From positions 1 to 64,000 of the forward strand of contig JARXWK010000008.1 in assembly GCA_029916745.1 (NCBI GenBank): a DNA stretch of 64,000 nucleotides, given 5' to 3'. The DNA comes from Dysgonomonadaceae bacterium PH5-43 (GTDB lineage: Bacteria; Bacteroidota; Bacteroidia; Bacteroidales; Azobacteroidaceae). The position numbers and the translations under genes are program-made. Of this stretch, positions 11,444 to 58,104 are shown piece after piece; position 1 is the first letter of the stretch; each line of letters starts with the position of its first letter. The notes under the pieces are model-generated. The model was given only the letters and a program-made list of their open reading frames with translations, was not told the DNA's origin and made no database searches.

Positions 11444-13405
11444 ATGAAAGTTTGCATTGCCGAAAAACCAAGCGTTGCAAGAGAAATCGCCTCAATACTT
11501 GGTGCTAATAGTAAAAGAGATGGATATTTTGAAGGGAACGGATACCAAGTTACTTGGACATTCGGGCACTTTTGCACCCTACAAGAACCTCACGACTACT
11601 CTCCCACTTGGAAATCTTGGTCGTTAAACACTCTCCCTATGATTCCTCTGCGTTTTAGAATTAAGCTTATAGACAACGATGGAGTTAAAAAACAATTCGG
11701 AGTAATAGAAAATCTTATCGCAAATGCCGAAGAGGTAATAAATTGTGGCGATGCCGGACAAGAAGGAGAACTAATTCAACGATGGGTTATGCAAAAGGCT
11801 CAATGCAAAGTGCCAGTTAAACGACTTTGGATTTCTTCTCTTACCGAAGATGCCATTCGTGAAGGGTTTGGCAACCTAAAAGACCAAAGCGAATTTAATA
11901 AACTTTACGAAGCTGGTCTTTCAAGAGCTATAGGCGATTGGCTTCTTGGCATAAACTCTACCAGACTTTATACTGTTAAATACGGACAAAACAAGTCGGT
12001 GCTTTCTATAGGAAGAGTGCAAACTCCAACCCTCGCAATGATAGTAAACCGACAATTAGAGATTGAAAATTTTAATCCGGAGCAATATTGGGAACTTAAA
12101 ACCGCATATCGCGACACTACTTTTTCTGCCACAAAAGGAAAGTTCACCAACAAAGAGGAAGGAGAAGCTTTTTTAGAGAAGATAAAACTTTCGGAATTTG
12201 AAGTTACCGATGTTTCTGTAAAAAAAGGAGAAGAAGCCCCTCCCCGATTGTTCGATCTTACTTCTCTTCAGGTTGAGTGTAATAAAAAATTTGCATTCTC
12301 TGCCGAAGACACCCTCAAAACAATACAATCTTTATACGAAAAGAAACTTACAACATATCCTCGTGTTGATACAACTTATCTGAGCGATGATATGTATCCC
12401 AAAATACCAAATATACTTAGAGGACTAAGTGGCTACGAAAGTCTTACTGGAAATTTATTATCCGCAAAAATACCCAAAACAAAAAAAGTTTTCGACAATA
12501 AGAAAGTTACAGACCACCACGCCATCATTCCTACTGGGGTTAAGGCTAACAACATTTCCGATAACGAACGAAAGGTTTACGACTTGATAGCTAAACGTTT
12601 CATTGCTGCCTTTTATCCTAATTGCAAAGTAGCAACAACTACTGTAATGGGGAAAGCGAGCGATGTAGAATTCAAGGTAACAGGCAAGCAAATATTATAT
12701 TCGGGCTGGCGTATAGTGTTTGGAAACGACGAAACAAGCGAAGAGAACCTACTACCTGCCTTTACCGTTGGGGAAAAAGGCGAACACGCTCCTGCTTTGA
12801 ACGAGAAATGGACTCAACCTCCAAAGTACTACACAGAAGCTACACTTCTTCGCGCTATGGAAACCGCTGGCAAGAGCATCGACAACGAAGAACTTCGTGA
12901 TGCTATGAAAGAAAACGGAATTGGCAGACCATCAACTCGTGCTGCTATAATAGAAACTTTATTCAAACGTAATTACATAAAGAAAGAAAAAAAGAATCTG
13001 CACGCAACACAAACAGGGATTGAACTTATTGGCGTTATAAAAGAAGAACTTCTTAAATCGGCAGAGCTAACTGGTCAATGGGAAAAGAAACTTCGCCAAA
13101 TAGAAAAAGGAGAATATAATCCCGGTCAGTTTATTAATGAACTCAAAGAAATGCTTGGTCAGATAGTTATAAATGTAAAAAACGACTGGGGAAGAGTTAC
13201 AATAATTGAAGAAAACAACAAACCAACAACCGAAAAAACAACAAAAAAGAAAGCCACACCTAAAAAGAAAACTACAAAAACAGAAAGCCTCGACCCAAAC
13301 CTTTGTCCTAAATGTAAAAAAGGACGAATTATTAAAGGCAAAACATCTTACGGCTGTTCTGAATGGAAATCTGGTTGCGATTACAGAAAGCCTTTTGAAA
13401 ACTAA
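11444..13405 (+). CDS. topB: DNA topoisomerase III
   Basis: This type IA topoisomerase cuts one DNA strand to relax or decatenate DNA. The N-terminal TOPRIM domain shows AEKPSVA and GDAGQEGELI (about 104-113). SIGRVQTPTLAMIV is the family signature. The catalytic tyrosine is Y305 in TTYPRVDT. After about residue 595 comes a Lys/Thr-rich linker and one C4 zinc ribbon (CPKCKKG...GCSEWKSGC). At 653 aa the gene is complete. Its stop codon is followed within 6 nt by an interspersed repeat. It is divergent from the ATPase/TOPRIM operon. TopB genes are also common on Bacteroidota mobile elements, but no conjugation genes are seen here. Confidence 0.95.
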   Translation: MKVCIAEKPSVAREIASILGANSKRDGYFEGNGYQVTWTFGHFCTLQEPHDYSPTWKSWSLNTLPMIPLRFRIKLIDNDGVKKQFGVIENLIANAEEVINCGDAGQEGELIQRWVMQKAQCKVPVKRLWISSLTEDAIREGFGNLKDQSEFNKLYEAGLSRAIGDWLLGINSTRLYTVKYGQNKSVLSIGRVQTPTLAMIVNRQLEIENFNPEQYWELKTAYRDTTFSATKGKFTNKEEGEAFLEKIKLSEFEVTDVSVKKGEEAPPRLFDLTSLQVECNKKFAFSAEDTLKTIQSLYEKKLTTYPRVDTTYLSDDMYPKIPNILRGLSGYESLTGNLLSAKIPKTKKVFDNKKVTDHHAIIPTGVKANNISDNERKVYDLIAKRFIAAFYPNCKVATTTVMGKASDVEFKVTGKQILYSGWRIVFGNDETSEENLLPAFTVGEKGEHAPALNEKWTQPPKYYTEATLLRAMETAGKSIDNEELRDAMKENGIGRPSTRAAIIETLFKRNYIKKEKKNLHATQTGIELIGVIKEELLKSAELTGQWEKKLRQIEKGEYNPGQFINELKEMLGQIVINVKNDWGRVTIIEENNKPTTEKTTKKKATPKKKTTKTESLDPNLCPKCKKGRIIKGKTSYGCSEWKSGCDYRKPFEN

Positions 13406-13410
13406 GAGTT

Positions 13411-13523
13411 GTGTGCTTCGCACAAGTTAAAAACTAAAAGATAAAAACTAAAAGTTGGCGCAAAGCGAAGCCAATCGCAATGCACAGTAGAGATGTGGGG
13501 TGCCGCATTAGTGTCCGCTAAAA
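13411..13523 (-). repeat. Interspersed repeat R1 copy fused to an IS-end relic
   Basis: Read on the minus strand this is the R1 family: palindromic GAGACG/CGTCTC part, CGCTTTGCGCCAACTTTTAG block, stuttering TTTTAGTTTTTA units and a TTGTGCGAAGCACA hairpin. Bases 13506-13523 are identical to the left 18 nt of the IS4 element at 13900, although no IS follows. Confidence 0.75.
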
Positions 13524-13547
13524 ATTGATGTACATATACCCTTTAGA

Positions 13548-13622
13548 TAGGTGATAGCCCGAATGGGCGATATATCCATAACCTTAGGTGAGCGAAGCGT
13601 TACCTAAGGGAATAAAAGTTAG
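13548..13622 (+). repeat. Partial R1 repeat, head segment
   Basis: AGCCCGAATGGGC, then CCATAACCTTAGG and GCGTTACCTAAGG match the head of the complete R1 copies at 17.0, 17.25 and 22.65 kb. The AACCTT...AAGG arms can pair as a hairpin. Confidence 0.7.
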
Positions 13623-13628
13623 CGCAAA

Positions 13629-13781
13629 GTTTCACACATTGATATAATCCGTTTCATACTTTGAAACGATCCGTTTCGCAGTTTGATATAATTCGTTTCA
13701 CGGTTTGAAACTACTTGTTTCATATAGGTGAAACACTTTGTTTCATACTAATGAAACAACCTGTTTCATACGGGTGAAACG
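13629..13781. repeat. 22-bp tandem array of GTTTCA hairpins
   Basis: GTTTCA (once GTTTCG) starts at 13629, 13651, 13673, 13695, 13717, 13740 and 13763, so the period is 22 or 23 bp. In most units it is followed by TGAAAC after about 7 nt, so each unit is a small inverted repeat. The intervening bases differ between units. No gene covers the array. Confidence 0.85.
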
Positions 13782-13804
13782 ACAAACAAGCAAGCTAAAA
13801 ACTG

Positions 13805-13899
13805 GTGTGCTTCGCACAAGTTAAAAACTAAAAACTAAGAACTAAAAGTTGGCGCGAAGCGAAGTCAATCGCAATGCACAGTAGAGACGTGGTGTGCCG
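13805..13899 (-). repeat. R1 repeat copy left of the IS4 element
   Basis: This minus-oriented R1 copy (GTGTGCTTCGCACAAG, stutter units, TTGGCGCGAAGCG, GTAGAGACGTGG) abuts the IS left end at 13900. The copy right of the IS is in the opposite orientation. Confidence 0.75.
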
Positions 13900-15213
13900 C
13901 ATTAGTGTCCGCTAAAATAAATTAAGATTTTGAAAACTATCATTTTGACAGTTCTTGTATTCTTTTTCTTCGGAAAAAAAGTCTTTCAGGTTCTTCCTTT
14001 CGAAGAGAGAGATTCCAAGAATTCTTAAGAGGTCAAATGTGGGAATCTCTATTTTGTAATCTTTTTCTACTATTGCAATCATACAATAAGTTATAATTGC
14101 CACGTAAATCTGAATTTTTACAGCATTCTCCGACATACCATAAAACCGCTTTATTTTTAGGTGTTGTTTAACCCATTTAAAGAAGATTTCTATCTGCCAT
14201 CGACATCTGTATAAGTGAGCTATTTTATCCGGTGTCATTTCAAAATTGTTAGTAAAAAACTCGAATACACGATTCTTTTCTTCAGAATAATAATATACAA
14301 TTCTTAGAGGTTGTTTATATCTTGCTGCAGCCCAACGACCGGATAATTTAATTTTCAAATCCCTTAAAACTCCGTTAGATTTGTCAGAACAATTAAATTC
14401 TTCAAGTATTTCATAATACATCTTCTTTTTACGTCGCACTATGAAAAATGCTCCTAAATCATCTATTTTTGATAAAGACAATAACTTCACATACGCCTTG
14501 TCAAATATATAGAAAGATGCTGTTTCATAAGGAAATAAATCCATCACGCCTTGGTCTCGTACTGTATTGTCAGTTATAATATTATGAATTGGTATTCTAG
14601 TAAGCAGGTCTAAAAGCACATGTAGTTTAAGACCTCCTTTACCTGCTTGCGTTGTCGACCACCAGTATTTGTTGATATCCAATGGTATGGAAGTTGAGTC
14701 GACTGCAAATACACGGTAATCAATTCCATCCATAAATAAATCATCTACATTGACTCGCTTCTTTTGCGCAAGCTCAATCACACGTTCTGCAAACAGTTGA
14801 AAAATTTTGAGTTCTCTTCGCTCATTAGCTTCTGACAATGTTGTTCGGCAAACGTCCTTCCCAAAGCCCATGTGATGAAACTTTGATTTATGAAATTTAA
14901 GCGAAGTAATTATGTCGCGCAAGCTCTCCCGAGAGGACAATTGAGCCCATATCAAAACCATTAAATGATTCCAACAGGTAAACGATTTTACATGTTTATT
15001 ACCTTGGTATTTTTTTACTAAATACTCAAAGTAATCTCTTGGTAGAAATTGACATAACTGCGTAAAAATATAGGTCCCTTTATTCATTAAGTAGCAATTT
15101 GATAGTTGCTACAAATATATAGAATTGAAAACCTCCGACAGAAAATAATAACGTAAATCGTTAATTATACAAAAGATAGAGCTAATATTAATGAATTTAA
15201 CCGGACACTAATG
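13900..15213 (-). mobile_element. IS4-family insertion sequence
   Basis: The element has terminal inverted repeats beginning CATTAGTGTCCG; about 21 of the first 25 bases match between the ends. It holds one intact transposase gene on the minus strand. No clean direct target-site duplication is visible: the flanks are oppositely oriented R1 repeats, so the sequences beside each end are inverted rather than direct copies. Confidence 0.85.
13912..15087 (-). CDS. IS4-family DDE transposase
   Basis: This 391-aa transposase catalyses cut-and-paste movement of its IS. An N-terminal segment of about 70 residues (PRDYFEYLVKKY, SFTCWNHLMVLIWAQL) is of the DUF4372 kind. It is followed by the RNase H-like domain with FAVDSTSI (first Asp), IFDKAYV (second Asp) and the RCRWQIEIFFKW block (catalytic Glu). 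The length is complete and the frame is intact, so the enzyme may be active. The start (MNKGTYIFTQL) lies about 125 nt inside the right terminal repeat, leaving room for its promoter. Confidence 0.93.
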   Translation of the reverse strand: MNKGTYIFTQLCQFLPRDYFEYLVKKYQGNKHVKSFTCWNHLMVLIWAQLSSRESLRDIITSLKFHKSKFHHMGFGKDVCRTTLSEANERRELKIFQLFAERVIELAQKKRVNVDDLFMDGIDYRVFAVDSTSIPLDINKYWWSTTQAGKGGLKLHVLLDLLTRIPIHNIITDNTVRDQGVMDLFPYETASFYIFDKAYVKLLSLSKIDDLGAFFIVRRKKKMYYEILEEFNCSDKSNGVLRDLKIKLSGRWAAARYKQPLRIVYYYSEEKNRVFEFFTNNFEMTPDKIAHLYRCRWQIEIFFKWVKQHLKIKRFYGMSENAVKIQIYVAIITYCMIAIVEKDYKIEIPTFDLLRILGISLFERKNLKDFFSEEKEYKNCQNDSFQNLNLF

Positions 15214-15301
15214 CGGCGCGCCACGTCTCTACGATGCATCGCGAGTTTACCGCTTTGCGCCAACTTTTAGTTTTTAGTTTTTAGCTTGTGCGAAGCACAC
15301 C
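15214..15301 (+). repeat. R1 repeat copy right of the IS4 element
   Basis: CGGCGCGCCACGTCTC, ACGATGCATCGCGAG, CGCTTTGCGCCAACTTTTAG and TTGTGCGAAGCACACC occur in order, matching the copies at 17.1 and 17.35 kb. Its end overlaps the last codons of abiEii. Confidence 0.8.
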
Positions 15302-16300
15302 AATCTTCCGAAATTGCTCGTTCAATTCTGCTATTCTTGCGATTAGTTTATCAAACGTCAGAGATTCTCCATAAATCATTGAAGATTGCATTTTTGAATA
15401 ATCATCTTTCCAATATTGCATAACTCCTTTGGGAGGAACAAAAGAAATAGCTCTTGGCAAAAGAGTATCATAGTCAAATCCTTTAATTCCTATAAATTTC
15501 CGACGGTGTTCAACTGTAGCTTTATACAATTCTATATCCAACAGAGCCTCTTTTGCGATAGACTTATCCATAAGTTTTTCCAAATCATAAATATGTCGAG
15601 ACATTCTTTCTACTCTAATGTCTTTCATTTCTTTTGCAAACTCTTCATGGAGCAAAAATGCTTTTTCAAGAAATGTTCTCTTAGGAGAAACAGCTCTAAT
15701 AATAAAAGATTTTTCAGCAAACGTTGCATTCGGAAACCCTTGAGAAATCATAGAATTTATTTCAACTGTTTCTATTGGTTCATTCATCGATCTACCACTA
15801 ACTTCCACCAAAATACGGCTTTGCAAATAAGAAGTTTCCGAAAATATGGATTTATAGTGTACTTCTATTATTTCTGGGTCTGTAGTAGTAACAGGAGTTA
15901 CATTAACCTTGACTTCGAATAAGGATTTATCAATTCCTAATTTCAATAACTGTTTTTCTATTTCTATACTCAGAGTCTCTCTAACAAAAGAACAAGACGC
16001 ACGACGAAGTTTATCGCTTATTTGTGTTTTAGATAATTCGCCACTAAATCCTAAAAACTCTCTATCAATGGCGATATCTACATCTTCAGAAAAACGTTCT
16101 ATCAGATTCCAGCATTTACTTAAAGAAGTTCCTCCTTTGAAGGATATATGTTGCGCAAAAGGAGACGTAAACAAAGCTCTCAACACAAGACTTACCCACC
16201 AATCTTTTTCAATGACTATAGAAGACTGCCCTACTCTTTTCGACAAGTCTTCGATTATATTTATTCGTCTTTCTTTTGCTATATTGAGCCAATTATTCAT
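15281..16300 (-). CDS. abiEii: AbiEii-type nucleotidyltransferase toxin
   Basis: This is the toxin of a type IV (AbiE) toxin-antitoxin and phage-abortive system. The family is a nucleotidyltransferase that targets RNA. The active-site block is present: GGTSLSK at residues 56-62 and RFSEDVD at 69-75. At 339 aa the length is ordinary. The start overlaps the end of the antitoxin gene by 8 nt, so the toxin is made after the antitoxin from one mRNA. The final residues GVLRTS and the stop codon come from interspersed repeat R1 (TGTGCTTCGCACAAG), so the native C terminus appears to have been replaced or extended. Confidence 0.9.
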   Translation of the reverse strand: MNNWLNIAKERRINIIEDLSKRVGQSSIVIEKDWWVSLVLRALFTSPFAQHISFKGGTSLSKCWNLIERFSEDVDIAIDREFLGFSGELSKTQISDKLRRASCSFVRETLSIEIEKQLLKLGIDKSLFEVKVNVTPVTTTDPEIIEVHYKSIFSETSYLQSRILVEVSGRSMNEPIETVEINSMISQGFPNATFAEKSFIIRAVSPKRTFLEKAFLLHEEFAKEMKDIRVERMSRHIYDLEKLMDKSIAKEALLDIELYKATVEHRRKFIGIKGFDYDTLLPRAISFVPPKGVMQYWKDDYSKMQSSMIYGESLTFDKLIARIAELNEQFRKIGVLRTS

Positions 16301-16998: not shown

Positions 16999-17190
16999 GG
17001 TAGCCCGAATGGGGTATATATCCATAACCTTGGGTGGGCGTAGCGTTACCTAAGGTTGTTGTGGTATGATACCCTTCTATTACACGAGACGAGACGCGGC
17101 GCGCCACGTCTCTACGATGCATCGCGAGTTTACCGCTTTGCGCCAACTTTTAGTTTTTAGCTTTTAGTTTTTAGCTTGTGCGAAGCACAC
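16999..17190 (+). repeat. Complete R1 interspersed repeat, copy d
   Basis: Order of parts: TAGCCCGAATGGGG, ATATATCCATAACCTTGGG, GCGTTACCTAAGGTTGTTG, GATACCCTTCTATTACACG, the GAGACG-N10-CGTCTC palindrome, CGCTTTGCGCCAACTTTTAG, stutter units, TTGTGCGAAGCACA. It lies upstream of the abiE operon and in a gap free of genes. Confidence 0.8.
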
Positions 17191-17500
17191 CACCCTACGG
17201 ATAATTTCGCTCGCCATACGGCTATGCAAATTCTACCCCTTTGTGGGTCAGTGGTAGCCCGAATGGGCTATATATCCATAACCTTGGGTGAGCGTAGCGT
17301 TACCTAAGGTTGTTGTGGTATGATACCCTTCTATTACACGAGACGCGGCGCGCCACGTCTCTACGATGCATTGCGAGTTTACCGCTTTGCGCCAACTTTT
17401 ATCTTTTAGTTTTTATCTGCGAGCTTGCTCGCTTACGCTTTGCGCCAACTTTTATCTTTTAGTTTTTATCTTTTAGTTTTTATCTTGTGCGAAGCACACA
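17191..17500 (+). repeat. Complete R1 interspersed repeat, copy e
   Basis: This is a tandem neighbour of copy d. It begins with an additional leader (TTCGCTCGCCATACGGCTATG, TACCCCTTTGTGGGTCAG) shared with the copy at 22585. The 3' part contains a second CGCTTTGCGCCAACTTTTA block after CTGCGAGCTTGCTCGC, so the tail is partly duplicated. Confidence 0.8.
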
Positions 17501-22076: not shown

Positions 22077-22436
22077 ATGAAAAAAATAATAGTTTTATTA
22101 CTAAGTGTAGTTGTTATAGGAGCAGGCGTTAAAGCAAATGCATTTTCAGATAATGGTACATTTACGGATATGAATACTCAGGTTACTCCTTATAGTTCTA
22201 TGCCTTCTAATAGTTCTGTAAACTCAGAACTTCAGAATCTACCTGCAGGAGTATTCGGTAGCAGTATGAGAAATGTAGCAACAATGAACAATCTTGACCC
22301 TGGAGATCCAATTCCTGGAGATCTTGGTGACCCAATAACCCCAATATCAGATGGTATAGGTTTATTGCTTACTTTAGGATTGGTGTATGTACTTTTTATT
22401 GCGAGCAAGCGAGCAAGCGAGCAAGCTCGCAGCTAA
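22077..22436 (+). CDS. Small protein with exosortase-type C-terminal tail (119 aa)
   Basis: This protein has a signal peptide (ending near KANA), a Ser/Asn-rich middle, a Pro/Gly/Asp-rich linker (DPGDPIPGDLGDPITP), the motif PISDG, a hydrophobic segment of about 16 residues and a basic end. It is the second instance of the layout found at 6280; aligned, both read P-G-x-P, G, P-x-P-[V/I]-x-D-G, hydrophobic, K-R. It follows a giant T9SS cargo gene, and the exosortase-like gene is about 480 nt downstream. The last codons (ASKRASEQARS and the stop) are encoded by repeat R1 sequence (GCGAGCAAGC units), so the tail has been rewritten by the repeat but stays basic. No function is known for the mature part. 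Confidence 0.75.
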   Translation: MKKIIVLLLSVVVIGAGVKANAFSDNGTFTDMNTQVTPYSSMPSNSSVNSELQNLPAGVFGSSMRNVATMNNLDPGDPIPGDLGDPITPISDGIGLLLTLGLVYVLFIASKRASEQARS

Positions 22437-22496
22437 AAGCTAAAAACTAAAAGCTAAAAGTTGGCGCGAAGCGCAGAAAGTCGCAATGCGACGTAG
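22401..22496 (-). repeat. R1 repeat fragment overlapping the 22077 gene end
   Basis: Minus-oriented R1 tail: GCGAGCAAGC units, AGCTCGCAG, stutter units of AAAAACTAAAAG type, TTGGCGCGAAGCG and TCGCAATGCGACGTAG. It encodes the C-terminal tail of the small protein. Confidence 0.7.
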
Positions 22497-22534
22497 AAAA
22501 AGAGAGATTCACAAATGTGAGTCTCTCTTTTTTT
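22497..22534 (+). terminator. Terminator of the second cassette
   Basis: AAAAAGAGAGATTCAC pairs with GTGAGTCTCTCTTTTTT around a 4-nt loop and ends in T7. It closes the transcript of the 1409-aa protein gene and its small partner. Confidence 0.85.
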
Positions 22535-22584
22535 GAACTAAGAGCTAAGAGTGAAGAACTAAGAACGGCGCAACGCGGCACATA

Positions 22585-22848
22585 CATTAACAACCGTAGG
22601 CAACGCTTCGCTCGCCGTACGGCTATGCAAATCCTACCCCTTTGGGGTCAGTGGTAGCCCGAATGGGCTATATATCCATAACCTTGGGTGAGCGTAGCGT
22701 TACCTAAGGTTGTTGTGGCGTGCTGCCTTTCTATTACACGAGACGCGGCACGCCACGTCTCTACGACGCATCGCGAGTTTACCGCTTTGTGCTAACTTTT
22801 AGTTTTTAGCTTTTAGTTCTTAGTTCTTAGTTTTTATCTTTTCCTCCC
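22585..22848 (+). repeat. Complete R1 interspersed repeat, copy g
   Basis: This copy is nearly identical over about 240 bp to the one at 17191-17500, including the CTCGCCGTACGGCTATGC leader, the AACCTTGGG/CCTAAGGTT hairpin, GAGACG-N10-CGTCTC and the CGCTTTGTGCTAAC block. It lies between the second cassette and the exosortase gene. Confidence 0.8.
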
Positions 22849-40589: not shown

Positions 40590-40758
40590 ATCCCCCCGTA
40601 GGCAACGCTTCGCTCGCCATACGCCTTATCTCTGGAGACGCGGCACGCCACATCTCTACTGTGCATTGCGATTGACTTCGCTTTGCGCTAACTTTTAGTT
40701 TTTATCTTTTAGTTTTTAACTTGTGCGAAGCACCAACTCTTAGTTCTTAGTTCTAAAA
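40590..40758 (+). repeat. R1 interspersed repeat, diverged copy h
   Basis: GCTTCGCTCGCCATACG, GGAGACGCGGCACGCCAC, CTCTACTGTGCATTGCG, CTTTGCGCTAACTTTTAG, stutter units and TTGTGCGAAGCAC occur in family order. The central AGCCCGAATGGGC block is missing. Confidence 0.7.
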
Positions 40759-40764
40759 ATGCAA

Positions 40765-41050
40765 AGCTTCACTTAGGGTTATCTCTACTAATAGCAATGA
40801 GGGAGTTCTACCAAGAGCGTCGGAACTCTTCTTGAGAGAGATAGAGCCGTCCATTTGCCCACGCGCTAAGTTTTACGCTCCTCTCCGAGAGTTAAGAGAT
40901 TACAGATGGTGACTATTAGGGTGGTTTGCTTACTATCTTGCCTCTTCTCTTAAATGACACAAAGGGTCTATCATGTCAAAATAATAGAAAAAAGAGAAGT
41001 CTTGTAAAAATAAGTAAGTAGAGAAAATGTCGAGAATTTGAGTGAAATAG
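40765..41050 (+). repeat. Repeat R2, left copy, with a 3-unit 23-bp array
   Basis: A leader AGCTTCACTTAGGG is followed by 23-bp units at 40784, 40807 and 40830 (TCTACTA, TCTACCA, TCTTGA). Then comes about 200 bp beginning AGAGATAGAGCCGTCC and ending AAATGTCGAGAATTTG. The whole unit is found inverted at 47769-48240 with roughly 80% identity in the 200-bp part. There is no coding frame common to both copies that I can see. Confidence 0.75.
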
Positions 41051-41096
41051 AAAACAAAGAAAGATAAAGCTTTCGCTTAATAGTTACTTCAATAGT

Positions 41097-47669: not shown

Positions 47670-47768
47670 TTTTTAGAATAAGTATTAGCTTTGCATCTAA
47701 AAAGCAATAGAAGAAAACAAATCTCTACTTGAATTGATAAAAAACAAAGCTGTCCGATAAAACTTTTT

Positions 47769-48240
47769 CTATTTCGTCCAAATTCTCGACATTTTCTCTA
47801 CTTACTTATTTCTACAAGACTGCACTTCTTTCTGTTATTTTGATATTATAGTCCCTTTGCTTAATCTTAAGAGCGGAGCAAGAGAGTAAGTAAACTACCC
47901 CAATAGGCAACTATCTGTAATTCCTTAACTCTCGGAGACGAGCATAAAAGTAAGCGAGTGGACAAATGGACGGCTCTATCTCTCTGGTGAAGCACTTCGC
48001 CGCTATTAGTAGAACTCCCTCGTCGTTCTTAGTAGATGGGCGAGCAGGTTGTTACTATATACCCCTTGTTGCTCTTAGTAGATAGGCGAGCTGTTTCTCA
48101 GTAGATACCCGATGCCTCTCTTAGTAGAACCACCTCGTCTTTATACTTAAAGCACCCCGTCTCTCTTAGTAGAGACACCTCGCCTATCTCAGTAGAGACA
48201 CGAGGGGTCTCTTAGTAGAGAGAAGCCCCTAAGTGAAGCT
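47769..48240 (-). repeat. Repeat R2, right copy, with a 10-unit 23-bp array
   Basis: This is the inverted counterpart of 40765-41050. The ~200-bp conserved part (47769-47990) is followed on the plus strand by units marked AGTAGA at 48008, 48031, 48077, 48100, 48123, 48168, 48191 and 48214, with degenerate units near 48054 and 48145, all on a 23-bp register. The leader appears inverted at 48227-48240. Each unit has a fixed TYAGTAGA and about 15 variable bases. Confidence 0.8.
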
Positions 48241-48372
48241 TTTACTTTTGAGGTTTATAAAGTGCTGTATTTGAGGTTGTTTATTTTTGTCAGATAAGGT
48301 TCGGAATAGAAAACAAATAGCAATAAAAGAATATTTTTGCTTGAACAAACACAGGGGTTTGCAGGTGAGCCA

Positions 48373-48463
48373 AAACTTCACTTAGGGTCTTCTCTCTTAT
48401 CAGAACGATAAGGGGTATCTAATAAGAAAGGCAAGGACGTTCTACTAACATCCTTGCCTCCTT
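48373..48463 (+). repeat. Repeat R2, third copy, leader plus 3 units
   Basis: ACTTCACTTAGGG is followed by units at 48395, 48418 and 48441 (TCTTATC, TCTAATA, TCTACTA) in exact 23-bp register. The ~200-bp trailer is absent. The last unit overlaps a hairpin that probably ends the leucine-rich-repeat gene. Confidence 0.65.
48430..48459 (-). terminator. Hairpin after the leucine-rich-repeat gene
   Basis: GGCAAGGA and TCCTTGCC form a perfect 8-bp stem. On the minus strand it is followed by TTTCTTATT. It lies about 65 nt beyond the stop of the minus-strand gene. Confidence 0.6.
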
Positions 48464-48524
48464 TTACTAAGATTGTGTTACGGAATAAAAAGGTTGCTAG
48501 CAACCTAAAATATCCGATGAGACA

Positions 48525-51500
48525 TTATTTATTGATAATAATTCTTTTCGTAACCACTCTATCTCCTCTATGTATAGATACCAAATAGACTCCCTCGTTA
48601 AGACTTGAAACATCTATTTTATCTGTAAAATTAGAATCTACCATTACCAGAGTTCCCAATTGATTGTATATCTCAATTTTCTTAATTGGATTATCTGAGG
48701 TTATGTATAAATATTGTTTTACAGGATTAGGGTATATTGACAGATTAAGATTTGAAACATTATCAATTCCAGAAGTCTGGATAACTTCCAATTTACCATT
48801 TACCAAATTGTAAGAATAATTATTGTCAAATCCGCCCGATAAAATAATATCATAAAATCCTACTGCTGAAGTTTTATCTGCTACACAAGTAATTGTTGGC
48901 AGTTCGTCTAAAACACTCGCATCATCATTATTCTTAAAACCATTGAATTGTAATGTGAAAGTAGGGTTTTCTTCCCCATAGAATTTATCTTTGTTATCAG
49001 CCGAAATAATTAATTGAGCTTTGTTTACTGTTAATAATTGTTGCTTAGATTCAGCTGTAAGATAGTTTTCATTTCCTACTGAAGAAGCTGTGATATATGT
49101 TTCTCCTGCTCCTATGATAGTTACAGTATTACCATTTATTGTTGCCACATTTGTGTTAGAACTTTCGTAAGAGATTGGCAATCCTGAATTGTTGGTTGCG
49201 CTCAAAGTAAAATCTGCATCACCATAAGTTTTTGTCGGTATTGCGGGGAAATCAATAATGTTCACCTGTATAGAATCCATATCATCTATAATATTAATAA
49301 AGTCTCTCCAGGCAATGGCTTTTTCATACAATTGTTTACTTCCAAATGGAATATGCAATGAACAGACGTTTATTTTTACACCATCAAAAGTAGTAATATC
49401 GCACAAAGGAGGTGTCTGATTTAAAGATGTAATATTATCTAAGGAGAAACAGTTATAAAATGTATTTTCCCCTAATGATGACAATGAAGAAGGAAGCGTA
49501 ACATCAGTTATGTTTCTACATTCGGCAAAAGCATAAGCTCCTATAGATACAATACCATTAGGGATATTCAATGAATTTAATCCTGTGCAGTCTGAAAACA
49601 TACCAGAAGGTATATGTTTTACATTTTCTCCAAAATTTACTATTCTTAAAGCAGTACATTTTCCGAATAGTTCATCAGGCTCATTAGTACCCTCATTACA
49701 ATTGATAGCGTTAAAATTAATCTCTCTTAAACGCGAACACTCTCTAAAAGCACCTGCTCCTATGTACGTTATATTTTCAGGAATCGTGATAGATGTTAGT
49801 CTTGTACAATTACCAAAAGCATTAGCCCCAATTGAGGTTACACCTTCGGGAATAGTGATAGAAGTTAGGCTACTACAATTCTCAAAAGAAGAATAGCTAA
49901 TAGAAGTTACACTTTCGGGAATTGTGATAGATGATAAGCTACTACAATTCTTAAAAGCAGAACTACCAATCGTAGTTACACTTTCTGGAATTGTGATAGA
50001 AGTTAGGCTACTACAATTCTCAAAAGAAGAATAGCTAATAGAAGTTACACCTTCGGGAATTGTGATAGATGATAAGCTACCACAATTCTTAAAAGCAGAA
50101 CTACCAATCGTAGTTACATTATTCCCCATAGTAACAGATGTCAAGCTACGACAGCCTTCAAAAGCAGAATTATAAATATAAGTTACACCTTCTGGAATAA
50201 TGATAGATGTTAGGCTACTACAATTCTTAAAAGCAGAATAGCCAATGGTGGTTACACTATTCCCCATAGCAACAGACGATAAGCTACTACAGCCATAAAA
50301 AATATACTCAGGCAATGATTCTACTTTTTCTCCTATAGTTACAGTTGAAAGGTTAGTACAATCAGAAAAAGGAGAGCTAGAGACCTCTGCATTTATAGCG
50401 TTGTAAGTAACTGTGGTTAGGCTTTCACAACCTGAAAAAATATACTCAGGCAATGATTCTACGCCTTCTGGAATAAGGATAGAAGTTAGGCTACTACAAT
50501 TCTTAAAAGCAGAATTGCCAATGGTAGTTACATTATTTCCCATAATAACAGATGCCAAGCTACTACAGCCAGAAAAAAGATACTTAGGCAATGATTCTAC
50601 TTTTTCTCCAATATTTACAGTTGAAAGGTTAGTACAACCAGAGAAAGGAGAGTTAGATACCTCCGCATTTACAGCATTATAATTAATGGTAGTTATGCCT
50701 GTACAACCTGAAAAAACAGATTGCTCAATTGAGGTTACTTTTTCAGGAATAGTGATAGAAGTTAGGCTACTACAATTCTTAAAAGCAGACACTCCAATAG
50801 TAGTTACACTATTTCCCATAGTAACAGAGGCCAAGCTACTACAACCAGAAAAAATATACTCAGGCAATGATTCCACTTTTTCTCCTATATTTACAGTTGA
50901 AAGGTTAGTACAATCAGAGAAGGGAGATTTATAGGAATATCCAGAGAGCTCTGCATTTATTGCATTATAATTAATGGTAGTTAAGCCTGTACAACCAGAA
51001 AAAGCATATCGCTCAATTGATGTTACACTTTCTGGAACAGTGATAGATGTTAAGCTTTCACAACCTGAAAAAATATACTCAGGCAAGGATTCTACTCCTT
51101 CTGGAATAATGATAGAAGTTAGGCTACTACAATTCTGAAAAGCAGAACTACCAATGAAAGTTACATTAGTTCCCATAGTAACAGATGACAAGCTACTACA
51201 GCCTGAAAAAAGATACTCAGGCAATGATTCTATACCTTCTGGAATAATGATAGATGTTAGGCTACTACAATTCTTAAAAGTAGAACTGCCAATAGTAGTT
51301 ACATTAGGTCCCATAGTAACAGATGACAAGCTACTACAGCCTGAAAAAAGAGAGCTAGGCAAGGATTCTACTCCTTCTGGAATAATGATAGAAGTTAGGC
51401 TACTACAATTATTAAAAGCAGAAAAGCCAATAGTAGTTACATTAGGTCCCATAGTAACAGATGACAAGCTACTACAGCCTGAAAAAAGAGAGCTAGGCAA

Positions 51501-54500
51501 GGATTCTACTTTTTCTCCTATATTTACAGTTGAAAGGTTATTACAATCAGAGAAAGGAGATTTAGAGGAATATCTAGAGAGCTCTGCTTTTATTGCATTA
51601 TAATCAATGGTAGTTATGCCTGTACAACCAGAAAAAGCAGATTGCTCAATTGATGTTACACCTTCTGGAATAGTGATAGATGTTAAGCTACTACAGTTAT
51701 AAAAAGTAGAACTGCCAATAGTAGTTACATTAGTTCCCATAGCAACAGACAATAAGCTACTACAGCCTGAAAAAAGAGAGCTAGGCAATAATTCTACTCC
51801 TTCTGGAATAATGATAGAAGTTAGGCTACTACAATTCTTAAAAGCAGATTCTCCAATGGTAGTTACATTATTTCCCATAGTAACAGATGACAAGCTACTA
51901 CAGCCTGAAAAAATACCAGAAGGTAATGACTCCACTTTTTCTCCTATATTTACAGTTGAAAGGTTAGTACAAGCAGAAAAAGAAGAACTTGAGATCTCCG
52001 CATTTATTGCATTATAATTAATGGTGGTTATACCTGTACAATCAGAAAAAATACCAGAAGGCAATAATTTCACTTTTTCTCCAATATTTACAGTTGAAAG
52101 GTTAGTACAATCAGAGAAACCATAATGATAGCTATAGCCAGAGATCTCCGCATTTATTGCATTATAATTAATGGTAGTTAAGCCTGTACAACCAGAAAAA
52201 GCATATCGCTCAATTGATGTTACACTTTCTGGAATAGTGATAGATGTTAAGCTACTACATCCTGAAAAAATGTACTCAGGCAATGATTCTATACCTTCTG
52301 GAATTGTGATAGATGTTAGGCTACTACAATTCTTAAAAGCAGAACTGCCAATAGTAGTTACATTATTTCCCACAGTAACAGATGTCAAGCTACTACAGCC
52401 TTCAAAAAGAGAGTTAGGCAATGATTCTACTCCTTCTGGAATAATGATAGAAGTTAGGCTACTACAATTCTTAAAAACAGAAAAGCCAATAGTAGTTACA
52501 TTAGTTCCCATAGTAACAGATGCCAAGCTACTACAGCCTGAAAAAATGTACTCAGGCAATGATTCCACTTTTTCTCCAATATTTACAGTTGAAAGATTAG
52601 TACAACCATAGAAAGGAGAGTCAGAGAACTCTGCATTTATAGCATTATAATTAATGGTAGTTAAGCCTATACAACCAGAAAAAGCAAAATCCCCAATAGT
52701 TGTCACATTTTCTGGAATCGTGATAGATGTTAAGCTTGTACACTCCCCAAAAGCAGAATCTCCAATCGTAGTTACATTAGTTCCCATAGTAACAGATACT
52801 AAGCTACTACAGACCCAAAAAAGAGAGCTAGGCAATGATTCCACTTTTTCTCCAATATTTACAGTTGAAAGGTTAGTACAATCAGAGAAAGGTGAGCTAG
52901 AGACCTCTGCATTTATAGCATTATAATTAATGGTAGTTAAGCCTATACAACCAGAAAAAGCCATATTTCCAATAGAAGTTACACCTTCTGGAATAGTGAT
53001 AGATGTTAGGCTACTACAATTATTAAAAGCAGAACTACCAATAGTAGTTACATTAGTTCCCATAGTAACAGATGTCAAGCTACTACAGCCAGAAAAAAGA
53101 GAGTTAGGCAAGGATTCTATACCTTCTGGAATTGTGATAGATGTTAGGCTACTACAATTCTGAAAAGCAGAACTGCCAATAGTAGTTACATTAGTTCCCA
53201 TAGTAACAGATGTCAAGCTACTACAGCCAGAAAAAATATACTCAGGCAATGATTCTACTTTTTCTCCAATATTTACAGTTGAAAGGTTAGTACAACCATA
53301 AAAAGGCGAGCTAGAGACCTCCGCATTTATTGCATTATAATTAATGGTCGTTAAGCCTATACAACCAGAAAAAACCATATTTCCAATAGTAGTTACACCT
53401 TCTGGAATAGTGATAGAAGTTAGGCTACTACAGCCAGAAAAAAGAGAGTTAGGCAATGATTCCACTTTTTCTCCAATATTTACAGTTGAAAGGTTAGTAC
53501 AATCAGAGAAGGGAGATTGATAGAAATATCCAGAGAGCTCTGCTTTTATTGCATTATAATCAATGGTAGTTAAGCCTATACAACCAGAAAAAGCATATCG
53601 CTCAATTGATGTTACACTTTCTGGAATAGTGATAGATGCCAAGCTACTACAGCCAGAAAAAAGAGAGTTAGGCAAGTATTCTATACCTTCTGGAATAATG
53701 ATAGAAGTTAGGCTACTACAATTAGAAAAAGCAGAACTACCAATGAAAGTTACATTAGTTCCCATAGTAACAGATGCCAAGCTACTACAGCCAGAAAAAG
53801 CAGACTTTTCAATTGAGGTTACACTTTCTGGAATAGTGATAGAAGTTAGGCTACTACAGCCAGAAAAAATATACTCAGGCAAGGATTCTACTTTTTCTCC
53901 AATATTTACAGTTGAAAGGTTAGTACAATCAGAGAAAGGAGATTGATAGGAATATCTAGAGAGCTCTGCTTTTATTGCATTATAATCAATGGTAGTTATG
54001 CCTGTACAACCAGAAAAAGCAGATTGCTCAATTGATGTTACGCCTTCTTGAATAGTGATAGAAGTTAGGCTACTACAGCCAGAAAAAATATACTCAGGCA
54101 AGGACTCTACTCCTTCTGGAATAATGATAGAAGTTAGGCTACTACAATTATAAAAAGCAGAACTACCAATGAAAGTTACATTAGTTCCCATAGTAACAGA
54201 TGACAAGCTACTACAGCCTGAAAAAATACCAGAAGGTAATGACTCCACTTTTTCTCCAATATTTACAGTTGAAAGGTTAGTACAACCATAAAAAGGCGAG
54301 CTAGAGACCTCCGCATTTATTGCATTATAATTAACGGTCGTTAAGCCTATACAACCAGGAAAAGCCCTATATCCAATAGTAGTTACACTTTCTGGAATAG
54401 TGATAGATGTTAAGCTACTACTGAAAGAAAAAGCAGACTCTCCAATTGATACTACAGAATAAGTTTTCTCTAAATGTGTAACGGTTTCAGGAATTGTAAT

Positions 54501-54662
54501 AACACCAGTATATGTACCATAATTCTCACCTGTTACTTCCACCTCATTCGTTTCTGAAGGCAGAATATTATAATAAATCCCGCCGCTCTCAAAATCATAC
54601 GCCCAAGCATGAATCACACAGAGTAAACCAAGCATGAAAACTAAAAAAAATTTCTTTGTCAT
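48525..54662 (-). CDS. Giant BspA-like leucine-rich-repeat T9SS surface protein (2045 aa)
   Basis: This is a predicted surface adhesin. The signal peptide ends near HAWA. From about residue 60 to 1790 there are roughly 70 BspA-type (LRR_5) repeats of 23 residues, with consensus like LTSITIPEGVTSIGSSAFSGCSS. Twelve units are replaced by longer YNAINAE/YNAIKAE units, giving a higher-order repeat. Two Ig/MBG-like domains follow (YGDADFTLSATNNSGLP, then KDKFYGEENPTFTL). A type A T9SS sorting domain (IEIYNQLGTLVM, LNEGVYLVSI, KRIIINK) ends it. BspA proteins of oral Bacteroidales bind fibronectin, fibrinogen or other cells. The DNA repeats are so alike that unit number probably varies. It is co-transcribed with the small membrane protein upstream. 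Confidence 0.92.
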   Translation of the reverse strand: MTKKFFLVFMLGLLCVIHAWAYDFESGGIYYNILPSETNEVEVTGENYGTYTGVITIPETVTHLEKTYSVVSIGESAFSFSSSLTSITIPESVTTIGYRAFPGCIGLTTVNYNAINAEVSSSPFYGCTNLSTVNIGEKVESLPSGIFSGCSSLSSVTMGTNVTFIGSSAFYNCSSLTSIIIPEGVESLPEYIFSGCSSLTSITIQEGVTSIEQSAFSGCTGITTIDYNAIKAELSRYSYQSPFSDCTNLSTVNIGEKVESLPEYIFSGCSSLTSITIPESVTSIEKSAFSGCSSLASVTMGTNVTFIGSSAFSNCSSLTSIIIPEGIEYLPNSLFSGCSSLASITIPESVTSIERYAFSGCIGLTTIDYNAIKAELSGYFYQSPFSDCTNLSTVNIGEKVESLPNSLFSGCSSLTSITIPEGVTTIGNMVFSGCIGLTTINYNAINAEVSSSPFYGCTNLSTVNIGEKVESLPEYIFSGCSSLTSVTMGTNVTTIGSSAFQNCSSLTSITIPEGIESLPNSLFSGCSSLTSVTMGTNVTTIGSSAFNNCSSLTSITIPEGVTSIGNMAFSGCIGLTTINYNAINAEVSSSPFSDCTNLSTVNIGEKVESLPSSLFWVCSSLVSVTMGTNVTTIGDSAFGECTSLTSITIPENVTTIGDFAFSGCIGLTTINYNAINAEFSDSPFYGCTNLSTVNIGEKVESLPEYIFSGCSSLASVTMGTNVTTIGFSVFKNCSSLTSIIIPEGVESLPNSLFEGCSSLTSVTVGNNVTTIGSSAFKNCSSLTSITIPEGIESLPEYIFSGCSSLTSITIPESVTSIERYAFSGCTGLTTINYNAINAEISGYSYHYGFSDCTNLSTVNIGEKVKLLPSGIFSDCTGITTINYNAINAEISSSSFSACTNLSTVNIGEKVESLPSGIFSGCSSLSSVTMGNNVTTIGESAFKNCSSLTSIIIPEGVELLPSSLFSGCSSLLSVAMGTNVTTIGSSTFYNCSSLTSITIPEGVTSIEQSAFSGCTGITTIDYNAIKAELSRYSSKSPFSDCNNLSTVNIGEKVESLPSSLFSGCSSLSSVTMGPNVTTIGFSAFNNCSSLTSIIIPEGVESLPSSLFSGCSSLSSVTMGPNVTTIGSSTFKNCSSLTSIIIPEGIESLPEYLFSGCSSLSSVTMGTNVTFIGSSAFQNCSSLTSIIIPEGVESLPEYIFSGCESLTSITVPESVTSIERYAFSGCTGLTTINYNAINAELSGYSYKSPFSDCTNLSTVNIGEKVESLPEYIFSGCSSLASVTMGNSVTTIGVSAFKNCSSLTSITIPEKVTSIEQSVFSGCTGITTINYNAVNAEVSNSPFSGCTNLSTVNIGEKVESLPKYLFSGCSSLASVIMGNNVTTIGNSAFKNCSSLTSILIPEGVESLPEYIFSGCESLTTVTYNAINAEVSSSPFSDCTNLSTVTIGEKVESLPEYIFYGCSSLSSVAMGNSVTTIGYSAFKNCSSLTSIIIPEGVTYIYNSAFEGCRSLTSVTMGNNVTTIGSSAFKNCGSLSSITIPEGVTSISYSSFENCSSLTSITIPESVTTIGSSAFKNCSSLSSITIPESVTSISYSSFENCSSLTSITIPEGVTSIGANAFGNCTRLTSITIPENITYIGAGAFRECSRLREINFNAINCNEGTNEPDELFGKCTALRIVNFGENVKHIPSGMFSDCTGLNSLNIPNGIVSIGAYAFAECRNITDVTLPSSLSSLGENTFYNCFSLDNITSLNQTPPLCDITTFDGVKINVCSLHIPFGSKQLYEKAIAWRDFINIIDDMDSIQVNIIDFPAIPTKTYGDADFTLSATNNSGLPISYESSNTNVATINGNTVTIIGAGETYITASSVGNENYLTAESKQQLLTVNKAQLIISADNKDKFYGEENPTFTLQFNGFKNNDDASVLDELPTITCVADKTSAVGFYDIILSGGFDNNYSYNLVNGKLEVIQTSGIDNVSNLNLSIYPNPVKQYLYITSDNPIKKIEIYNQLGTLVMVDSNFTDKIDVSSLNEGVYLVSIHRGDRVVTKRIIINK

Positions 54663-56614: not shown

Positions 56615-56768
56615 CTTTCAGCCTTTTTGCGCCTTATCTCTGGAGACGCGGCACGCCAGTCTCTACTGTGCTTTGCGTTTTACTGCGCTTGTCGCGCAAC
56701 TTTTATCTTTTAGTTTTTAGTTTTTAACTGCGAGTAAGCTCGCTTGTCGCCAACTCTTTGTTCTTAGT
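56615..56768 (+). repeat. R1 interspersed repeat, diverged copy i
   Basis: GGAGACGCGGCACGCCAG, CTCTACTGTGCTTTGCG, CGCGCAACTTTTATC, stutter units, CTGCGAGTAAGCTCGC and TTGTCGCCAACTC follow family order. It fills most of the gap between the convergent WYL and symporter genes. Confidence 0.65.
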
Positions 56769-56769
56769 T

Positions 56770-58104
56770 CTAAATAACCTCTAACAAATCGAGGAATATA
56801 ACTATTATAGCCAATGGAACAAAAAACCTTATTAAGAACCAAAGCACATTAAATATTTTCACTTTTATTACGCCTCCGTTAGTTAACTCATCTTTAACTT
56901 CCGATTTTTTAAGTTTCCAACCTACAAATAAACTTATAAACAATGCTCCAATTGGCATTATATAAATCGACGACAGTTTATCGAAGAAGTCAAATATATT
57001 ATTGCCTAATATTTTGAAATCAGACAATACTCCCATAGAAAGCGAACACAATACACCTGTAATAGCTAATGCCACTCCCGAATACACCAATGCTTTATGA
57101 CGAGATATTTTCTTTTCTTCTGTAAGATATGAGATTATTACTTCGAGTAAAGATATTGCCGAAGTAAGTGCTGCAACTATAAGTACAATAAAAAACACAA
57201 TGGCAAATATACTACCTCCAGGCATACTTGCAAAAACTTCGGGAAGCACTATAAAAAGAAGTCCCGGTCCTTGAGTAGGTTCAAACCCAAAAGAAAATAC
57301 GGCTGGAAGTATCAAGAAACCTGCAAGCAAAGCAAATATTAAATCCATCACAATGGTTATAATACCTATTTTACAAATACTCTCCGTTTTGCCAACGTAA
57401 GAACCGTAAGTTAAAGCTATTCCCATACCTAAGCTTAAAGAGAACAATCCTTGTCCTAAGGCATTAAGAACAACATCGGGAGTAACCTTACTCCAATCAG
57501 GTTTTATCATAAAGTCGATACCTACTTGAGCATTAGGCAAAGTTAAAGAGTAAATGGCTAATATAAATACCATAATAAATAACGAAGGCATAAGTATTTT
57601 AGAATACTTCTCGATACCGTTTTTCACTCCCAACCATAATATAGACACTGTTATTCCTAAGAATAATAAGTGCATTACAACCGGAGTTATAGGCGAACTA
57701 ACAAATGATTCGAATTGTGTTTGAGCCACTCCTGTTGTTGTAAAACCTAACTGTAACGATGTAAAGAAATATTTAATAGCCCACCCTCCTACTACAGAGT
57801 AAAAAGATAAGATTATGAAAGCGCAAACAACTCCAAGCAATCCCGTAAAATACCATTTACTTCTGGGTGCTAATTTTTTGAAGGCTCCCACAGGATTAGA
57901 TTGAGAACGTCTTCCTATAATAAATTCCGACATCATCAATGGGAAGTATAGTATAAATAAAAATATTATATACACAATAATAAAAGCAGCTCCTCCATTG
58001 TTTCCTGCCATATACGGAAATTTCCATAAATTACCTAAACCAACCGCCGAACCTATCAAAGCCATTAATGCTCCCATCTGCGACGAAAATGTATCTCTTT
58101 TCAT
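56770..58104 (-). CDS. Sodium-dependent transporter (neurotransmitter:sodium symporter family)
   Basis: This inner-membrane symporter takes up an amino acid or related amine with sodium. The first membrane segment has the family motif GSAVGLGNLWKFPYM, which forms the sodium and substrate site, and there are about 11-12 hydrophobic segments in 444 aa. I chose the ATG at 58104 (MKRDTFSSQ) because a TATTTTTG promoter box lies at 58133-58126 on the minus strand, on top of the longer start. The substrate is unknown; bacterial relatives carry tyrosine, tryptophan or leucine. It is divergent from the T9SS operon. Confidence 0.93.
   Translation of the reverse strand: MKRDTFSSQMGALMALIGSAVGLGNLWKFPYMAGNNGGAAFIIVYIIFLFILYFPLMMSEFIIGRRSQSNPVGAFKKLAPRSKWYFTGLLGVVCAFIILSFYSVVGGWAIKYFFTSLQLGFTTTGVAQTQFESFVSSPITPVVMHLLFLGITVSILWLGVKNGIEKYSKILMPSLFIMVFILAIYSLTLPNAQVGIDFMIKPDWSKVTPDVVLNALGQGLFSLSLGMGIALTYGSYVGKTESICKIGIITIVMDLIFALLAGFLILPAVFSFGFEPTQGPGLLFIVLPEVFASMPGGSIFAIVFFIVLIVAALTSAISLLEVIISYLTEEKKISRHKALVYSGVALAITGVLCSLSMGVLSDFKILGNNIFDFFDKLSSIYIMPIGALFISLFVGWKLKKSEVKDELTNGGVIKVKIFNVLWFLIRFFVPLAIIVIFLDLLEVI

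Follow-up and report, generated by a model that had tools for sequence, protein, structure and literature searches.

The 23-bp array from which this study started probably forms the interior of a modular, non-autonomous interspersed repeat that has spread through the intergenic regions of one lineage. Judged by its sequence organization, the element constitutes a new family of such repeats, in one class with BOX (compared by its description) and BrickBuilt. The evidence comes from the window, a stretch of 64,000 nucleotides of Dysgonomonadaceae bacterium PH5-43, and from a search of the draft genome (2,537,984 bases, 46 contigs).

Three copies of the element in the window

The initial annotation had described ten units carrying the octamer TYAGTAGA on a 23-bp register, and this array is real. 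Eight octamers lie between 48006 and 48219 in steps of 23 (22 once) or doubles of it, degenerate cores recognized by eye occupy the register places 48052 and 48144, and an independent Tandem Repeats Finder call returned periods of 23 and 46. The improbable part of the array is the register; the octamer by itself is just mildly over-represented, with 15 matches in the whole window against 6.9 +/- 2.7 in shuffles, 1 of 100 of which reaches 15.

Read on the minus strand, the leader CTTCACTTAGGG (48238-48227), exact at 81 genome places and with a sharp left boundary, is followed by ten 23-bp units (47997-48226) and by the conserved 233-bp tail of what we call the long form (47764-47996), which occurs at at least 40 genome places and was aligned from 37 copies. 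The number of ten is confirmed by the gap between leader and tail, whose 230 bases are ten units exactly, and unit alignment showed that the array is without position 8 of the 11-unit plan of the family. The core of each unit is a 10-bp near-palindrome, TCTACTAAGA, or TCTTAGTAGA when its centre is inverted. Upstream of the leader lies an A-rich conserved start, AAAAGTAAAAG (48249-48239, minus strand), which corresponds to AAAATGCAAAG in most copies. This copy also has a left outer arm (48239-48298, minus strand) that starts with CTTATCTGACAAAA and is common to five copies, with CTTATCCGATTAGAA in others, and an outer end CTGTCCGATAAAAC (47750-47763, plus strand) that resembles the terminal repeat found in an insertion sequence resident on contig 26; arm and outer end are weakly inverted relative to each other (8-9 of 13 alike, by eye). 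The element therefore extends from about 47750 to 48250 or further, past the coordinates first noted. A promoter scan found none in the window copies, a result of little weight because the scan looks for sigma-70 sites.

The leader had been placed ahead of all three arrays of the window, and CTTCACTTAGGG is indeed present at each of them, at 40767 (plus), 48376 (plus) and 48227-48238 (minus), but relative to the other two the array described above is reverse-complemented, which places its leader at its high end. The two further copies had been credited with three units each, which is correct for the copy at 48376 but not for the copy at 40767, which has about two. This second copy is a long form (40756-41087, plus strand), composed of AAAATGCAAAG and the leader (40756-40778, by sequence reading and leader match), an array reduced to about two units (40779-40823, by tail match and sequence reading) and a tail that runs through the right end of the family, ...TAGTTAC (40824-41087, tail match 40835-41054). 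The third copy is a short form (48376-48480 overall, plus strand) with the leader at 48376-48387 and three units reaching 48456, the third of which forms part of a terminal hairpin with covarying arms, AGGCAAGG...CCTTGCCT, followed by a T-rich stretch (48429-48459). About 65 bases past this hairpin ends a convergent gene (48525-54662, minus strand). Its product of 2045 amino acids contains many leucine-rich repeats, of BspA type by the flanking-gene match, with a T9SS sorting domain at its end, and the gene itself contains long 69/138-bp tandem repeats.

Copy number, distribution and the two forms

The exact leader occurs 81 times in the genome and its reversed pattern never; when one mismatch is allowed the numbers are 93 and 7. 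The genome-wide search with leader and register that had been proposed as a check recovered 82 leader-bearing elements with the 23-bp step, of about 0.1-0.55 kb each, which are the 81 exact leaders minus one with no array behind it (C2:23371) plus two with one-mismatch leaders (L011 and L024). Among the 81 copies in the fetched loci, 33 have the tail (long form) and 48 are without it and were called short, at least three of the latter (L036, L064, L081) being untypable as they meet a contig end or another insert; the 82nd is the long copy at 40767 of the window, outside these loci. At L025, L030, L037, L084, L085, L086 and L089 there are tails or pieces of arrays whose leader is altered or absent. 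All these counts are lower bounds, because 40 of 119 element candidates and 40 of 63 tail candidates were scored. A crude caller recorded no ORF of at least 80 amino acids spanning the element in 80 of the 81 copies, and the copies are, like those of a MITE, short, non-coding, numerous and intergenic.

According to the searches made, the family is restricted to one lineage. The exact leader gave one single match in 44 other family genomes (in G038) and zero in the remaining 43, and a DNA search of 38 relatives did not find the element. The pattern AAGCTTCACTTAGGGNNNNCTCT had no match in viral contigs or in 84,980 species genomes, among which its own genome is possibly absent, and plasmids and phages gave no match at E 1e-5. 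In the portions available of the open papers, we found no account of the element.

The left boundary is sharp: in the 38 copies with unique left context, conservation per base rises abruptly to 87-100% at AAAATGCAAAG, and the flanks are otherwise unrelated. According to the motif rule by which contexts were assigned, the remaining 43 copies adjoin other dispersed repeats (33 and 5) or have the left arm of the window copy (5). Non-unique left contexts were found in 30 of the 33 long copies and unique ones in 35 of the 48 short copies. At the right, long copies are conserved to AAAGCTTTCGCTGAATAGTTAC in 18 of 35 cases (allowing up to 7 mismatches of 22) and divergent beyond. The element thus has two alternative 3' modules, a conserved tail of about 240 bp in the long form versus no tail and often a hairpin in the short form. 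Runs of the tetranucleotide GATA were seen at the right flank of the element in L039 and L075.

The units are ordered and specific to their position

Spacing between cores bore out the 22-23 bp described at the outset: over 76 arrays, 569 of 650 spacings are 23, 43 are 22 and 29 are 46. The distance from leader to tail in the 33 long arrays corresponds, in whole steps within two bases, to 7 units in one array (L035), 9 in two, 10 in eight, 11 in twenty and 12 in two. When these 33 arrays were aligned unit by unit, each position showed a consensus of its own. Outside the core, units at the same position of different copies had an identity of 0.77, against 0.39 for units at different positions, whether of one copy or of two, and for 325 of 342 units the closest counterpart was the unit at that position in another copy. 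This alignment replaced an earlier comparison in fixed register (0.596 for the same position, 0.401 for different ones), which was superseded because the register shifts after unit 4. The proposed combination of a fixed core with a variable interior thus stands for the differences between unit positions, but at each position the interior is conserved across copies. The doubt raised together with it, that the variable bases are random drift and the leader absent elsewhere, is dispelled by this conservation and by the 81 exact leaders.

The conservation of units by position implies that the array was built once and then copied as a block, whole units being lost or gained, possibly by slippage or recombination between units. 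A minisatellite homogenized separately at each locus is excluded by the conservation of each position across copies, as is a CRISPR-like store of spacers, given that the bases between cores are common by position to the 33 arrays.

Over all 11 positions, conservation between copies is 0.90 in the core and 0.84 outside it (p = 0.07), while in units 5-11 the core is somewhat better conserved than the rest (p = 0.03). An inverted centre (TAGT or CAGT for ACTA or ACTG) was found in 69 of 225 exact cores of units 1-3 versus 1 of 235 in units 4-11. The idea that stem length drives this inversion was discarded, its frequency showing no rise with the surrounding palindrome (p = 0.053); the stem is 3 bp long in 40 of the 41 unit-2 cores that are inverted. 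L078 and L065 carry in place of unit 2 the sequence TCGTCGTTGTTACTAGATAGGCG, which looks like a copied arm.

Folding of the array and the terminal hairpin of the short form

In a sample of every fourth copy (21 in total, 20 shuffles each), arrays folded better than their shuffles on the leader strand (mean z -4.0) and on the other strand (-3.6), and they do so on both strands because the units occur in both orientations. The halves of 76 arrays showed no excess of complementarity within copies over that between copies, either in longest exact match (p = 0.11) or in duplex energy (p = 0.82). In L078, TCGTCGTTGTTACTAGATAGGCG completes a perfect inverted match of 42 bp with later units, and pairs taken across copies reach 45. 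The long-form tail presented no covariation and no conserved RNA structure in 37 copies, and Rfam returned no match except a tRNA.

The short form often ends in a hairpin, which in the window copy reads AGGCAAGG..GTTCTACTAAC..CCTTGCCT and then CCTTTTACTAAGATTG. Its arms covary, with a mean of -13.0 kcal/mol for native pairs versus -10.4 for chimeric ones (p = 0.0004) in 20 of the 47 scored short copies, selected by a motif score of at least 24, a cut-off set in the same script for a motif earlier read off by eye. As 8 or 9 of these 20 hairpins fold worse than or about like their chimeras, the signal comes from the remaining copies. Hairpins classed as terminator-like by a custom rule were present in the leader direction in 10 of 45 short versus 0 of 33 long copies (p = 0.004) and in the opposite direction in 10 of 45 versus 1 of 33 (p = 0.02), the short stretches including some unique DNA outside the element. 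A standard terminator scan detected nothing in two short loci, L061 and L047.

Short and long forms differ in gene context

We recorded ORFs of at least 80 amino acids, called with a crude ORF caller, on both sides of 69 copies. The context of the two forms is different (p = 0.0017): on the 3' side a convergent gene is found in 27 of 37 short copies (p = 0.008), whereas for long copies the gene points away in 21 of 32, which is not significant alone (p = 0.11). Hairpins were recognized by eye in 22 copies, namely 18 of the 20 of the covariation test (without L046 and L081) plus L060, L074, L079 and L080, and 20 of them had a called gene on that side. This gene was convergent in 16 of the 20 (p = 0.012), and 11 of the 16 have their stop codon 25-95 bases from the hairpin. 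No protein family was enriched among the ORFs that flank the copies (148 in all), the commonest of the families listed accounting for no more than 2 of 66 and 3 of 82. By coordinate reading, six of the 37 T9SS sorting domains of the genome lie beside an element.

It is likely that the short form often carries a terminator acting in both directions and persists where this is harmless, and that the long form is tolerated upstream of genes. If the hairpin stopped transcription, short copies would persist mainly beside convergent gene ends and the hairpin-free long copies could be tolerated upstream of genes, and the place of the repeat among genes would follow from its own end module.

Comparison with BrickBuilt, BOX and SPRITE

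The initial annotation had compared the array with the 23-bp minisatellite of BrickBuilt, and the likeness holds for the plan and fails for the sequence. In the part of its description available (PMC4596501), BrickBuilt has a 23-bp unit, a leader and a tail, about 20 intergenic copies and a narrow host range, with a unit number that varies between copies and ends that are often missing; it has IS5-type ends, GAGACCTTTGCA, and some target duplications, four homologues in P. gulae DSM 15663 and a reported link with secreted (T9SS) proteins. It thus shares with our element the 23-bp tandem unit, the leader, the tail, the intergenic copies and the variable unit number. It differs, as far as that description goes, in that its IS5-type ends are absent here, where the ends are others and target duplications are not clear, in that its terminal repeat is not our leader CTTCACTTAGGG, and in that our element has a second, short form with a hairpin. 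BrickBuilt units are also near-identical within an array, while those of our element are ordered, distinct and 39% alike outside the core.

The direct comparison drew on the genome of P. gulae DSM 15663, in which 27 stretches with the end motif yielded two 23-bp arrays. One, L191, has the unit AGACCATAGTATCCTCTCATATG and lies about 190 bases from the motif; the other, L192, has the unit AGAGGATACTATGGTCTCATATG and lies more than 1 kb from it. We take both for BrickBuilt by period and host and, for L191, by the end motif. Their units are the reverse complement of each other in another phase and match internally at 91% and 89%. Three units of our element matched the P. gulae units at 10, 10 and 12 of 23 places (shuffle means 10.5-10.7), with shuffles as good in 89%, 87% and 18% of cases, so the two arrays resemble our units no better than shuffles do; blastn of one element against the two P. 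gulae loci gave nothing below E = 0.35. The P. gulae unit consists of a 17-bp near-palindrome plus CATATG and is for this reason close to its own reverse complement.

The boxB unit of BOX is about 45 bp long. BOX of Streptococcus pneumoniae is described, in the part of the account available (PMC3049150), as modular, with a variable boxB number, more than 100 copies, an enrichment between convergent genes, target duplications and inverted ends; in relatives from S. suis the same inner module is combined with alternative end modules. Our element has in common with BOX, so described, a start and an end module that are fixed, inner tandem units in variable number and the convergent-gene context, and with the S. 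suis relatives the alternative ends. BOX would differ from it in sequence and unit length, and differs in its described inverted ends and target duplications and in its unrelated host. SPRITE, also from S. pneumoniae, carries a terminator-like hairpin close to the 3' termini of convergent genes (PMC3049150, same part); it resembles our short form as a dispersed repeat with such a hairpin at convergent gene ends but is described as one long hairpin, without leader or array. BrickBuilt and BOX are classed as prokaryotic MITEs in the portion available of PMC10969869. The accounts of BOX and BrickBuilt (PMC4596501, PMC3049150), in the parts available, do not mention position-specific units in fixed order, core inversions confined to the first three units or a covarying hairpin end in one of two forms.

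Alternative explanations

The array could instead be a series of phased protein-binding sites, by which the copies organize the chromosome or regulate their neighbours. The strict 23-bp spacing (569 of 650), the presence of one near-palindromic 10-bp core in nearly all units, the better conservation of this core in units 5-11 and the location of copies at more than 80 intergenic places would suit such a function. We nevertheless consider it unlikely, since over all 11 positions the difference in conservation is not significant, arrays shrink to two units (40767) and seven (L035), the core is freely inverted in units 1-3 and the flanking genes are without an enriched family. A more elaborate version, to which we give little credence, sees in the approximately ten ordered 23-bp sites a composite landing pad for host proteins and in the 3' modules a transcription stop or insulator, so that a selfish repeat would have turned into chromosome-wide punctuation; if true, it would set a stop at convergent gene ends against an insulator upstream of promoters. 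A structured transcript of the array, consisting of stacked hairpins, is very unlikely: the folding on the leader strand and the 42-bp inverted match of L078 recommend it, but the opposite strand folds equally, arm complementarity is a family-wide trait that individual copies do not maintain, and neither covariation in the tail nor an Rfam match other than the tRNA accompanies it.

The same 23-bp period and plan in two Bacteroidales could also mean that our element and BrickBuilt diverged from one ancestral repeat, but with a unit similarity equal to that of shuffles, no blastn match below E = 0.35, other ends and another internal identity, we judge this highly improbable. Length differences in whole units are what an ordinary minisatellite, expanded separately at each locus and with random drift in its variable bases, would leave, and yet units conserved by position and a non-core identity of 0.39 within arrays make this origin improbable in the extreme. 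We prefer the modular interspersed repeat, in which the array most likely plays a passive, structural role. Few bacteria are described as having modular repeats built around an inner tandem array (BOX, BrickBuilt), and an unrelated sequence with the same plan and the same 23-bp step in Bacteroidales suggests that this plan may arise repeatedly. The more than 80 paralogues of this single genome allow a direct comparison of how units are lost, cores inverted and 3' ends chosen.

Putative mobility and resident insertion sequences

The mobility of the family is an inferred property, and the spread of the preferred modular repeat would have taken place by transposition with the enzyme of another element. 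Target-site duplication was not above control: of the 15 long copies in which both ends are present, at most 7 shared a 4-mer or a longer word over all boundary offsets, and mismatched controls gave a mean of 6.4 and a maximum of 8. An apparent TAGTT target duplication of the long form was rejected because it came from a neighbouring repeat and the control was equal. The inverted ends of the long form, AAAGCTTCACTT and AAAGCTTTATCTT, are weak (shuffle p = 0.04), and candidate inverted ends of the short form, TTATTGYTGTA, were dismissed as convincing on both sides only in L048. The genome has no Y1 transposase (PF01797), a domain present in 5 of 14 control genomes, and so lacks this mark of REP/RAYT elements; it also has no DDE_3 transposase, and no transposase-bearing copy of the element was seen among the fetched loci.

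DDE_Tnp_1 has six matches in the genome. The insertion sequence of contig 26 has the ends TACTGTCCGATAAAA; ACTGTCCGATAAAA is common to it and to the outer end of four copies. The tail-side end CTGTCCGATAAAAC or a close variant is present in four long copies (L001, L002, L003 and L020), that of the window included, and three of these four also have CTTATCYGA in a left arm that is inverted, by eye, at 8-9 of 13 places. From these shared ends and arm, a few copies may have been moved by the contig-26 enzyme, which would perhaps make this resident insertion sequence with ACTGTCCGATAAAA ends their mover; no parent transposon was seen for the leader or ...TAGTTAC ends.

Inverted pairs of CTGTCCGATAAAA about 50-130 bases apart (C3:125568-125700, C26:5688-5814, C23:46643-46690) resemble small MITEs belonging to the insertion sequence of contig 26. 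At about 13803-15302 of the window, a DDE_Tnp_1 transposase (14080-14721) lies between inverted copies of TGGTGTGCTTCGCACAAGTTAAAAACTAAAAACTAAGAA 1500 bases apart, relatives of which directly flank the leader of the array element, on its outer side, in many copies. Beside this transposase, at 13629-13780, there is an unrelated 22/23-bp minisatellite (GTTTCACA... / TGAAACAACTTG...). A mosaic of further intergenic repeat families (CTTTTAGTTTTTAACTTGTGCGAAGCAC and others) occupies 13400-13900, 15213, 17091-17497, 22431-22840, 40640-40760 and 56630-56774 of the window, and the genome seems heavily loaded with them. To the right of the element in L053 and L076, at contig ends, ACGTGAGTTCGATATAA equals the start of the MITE239 end of P. 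gingivalis as given in the available part of PMC4596501, a match that hints at a shared IS5-type element.
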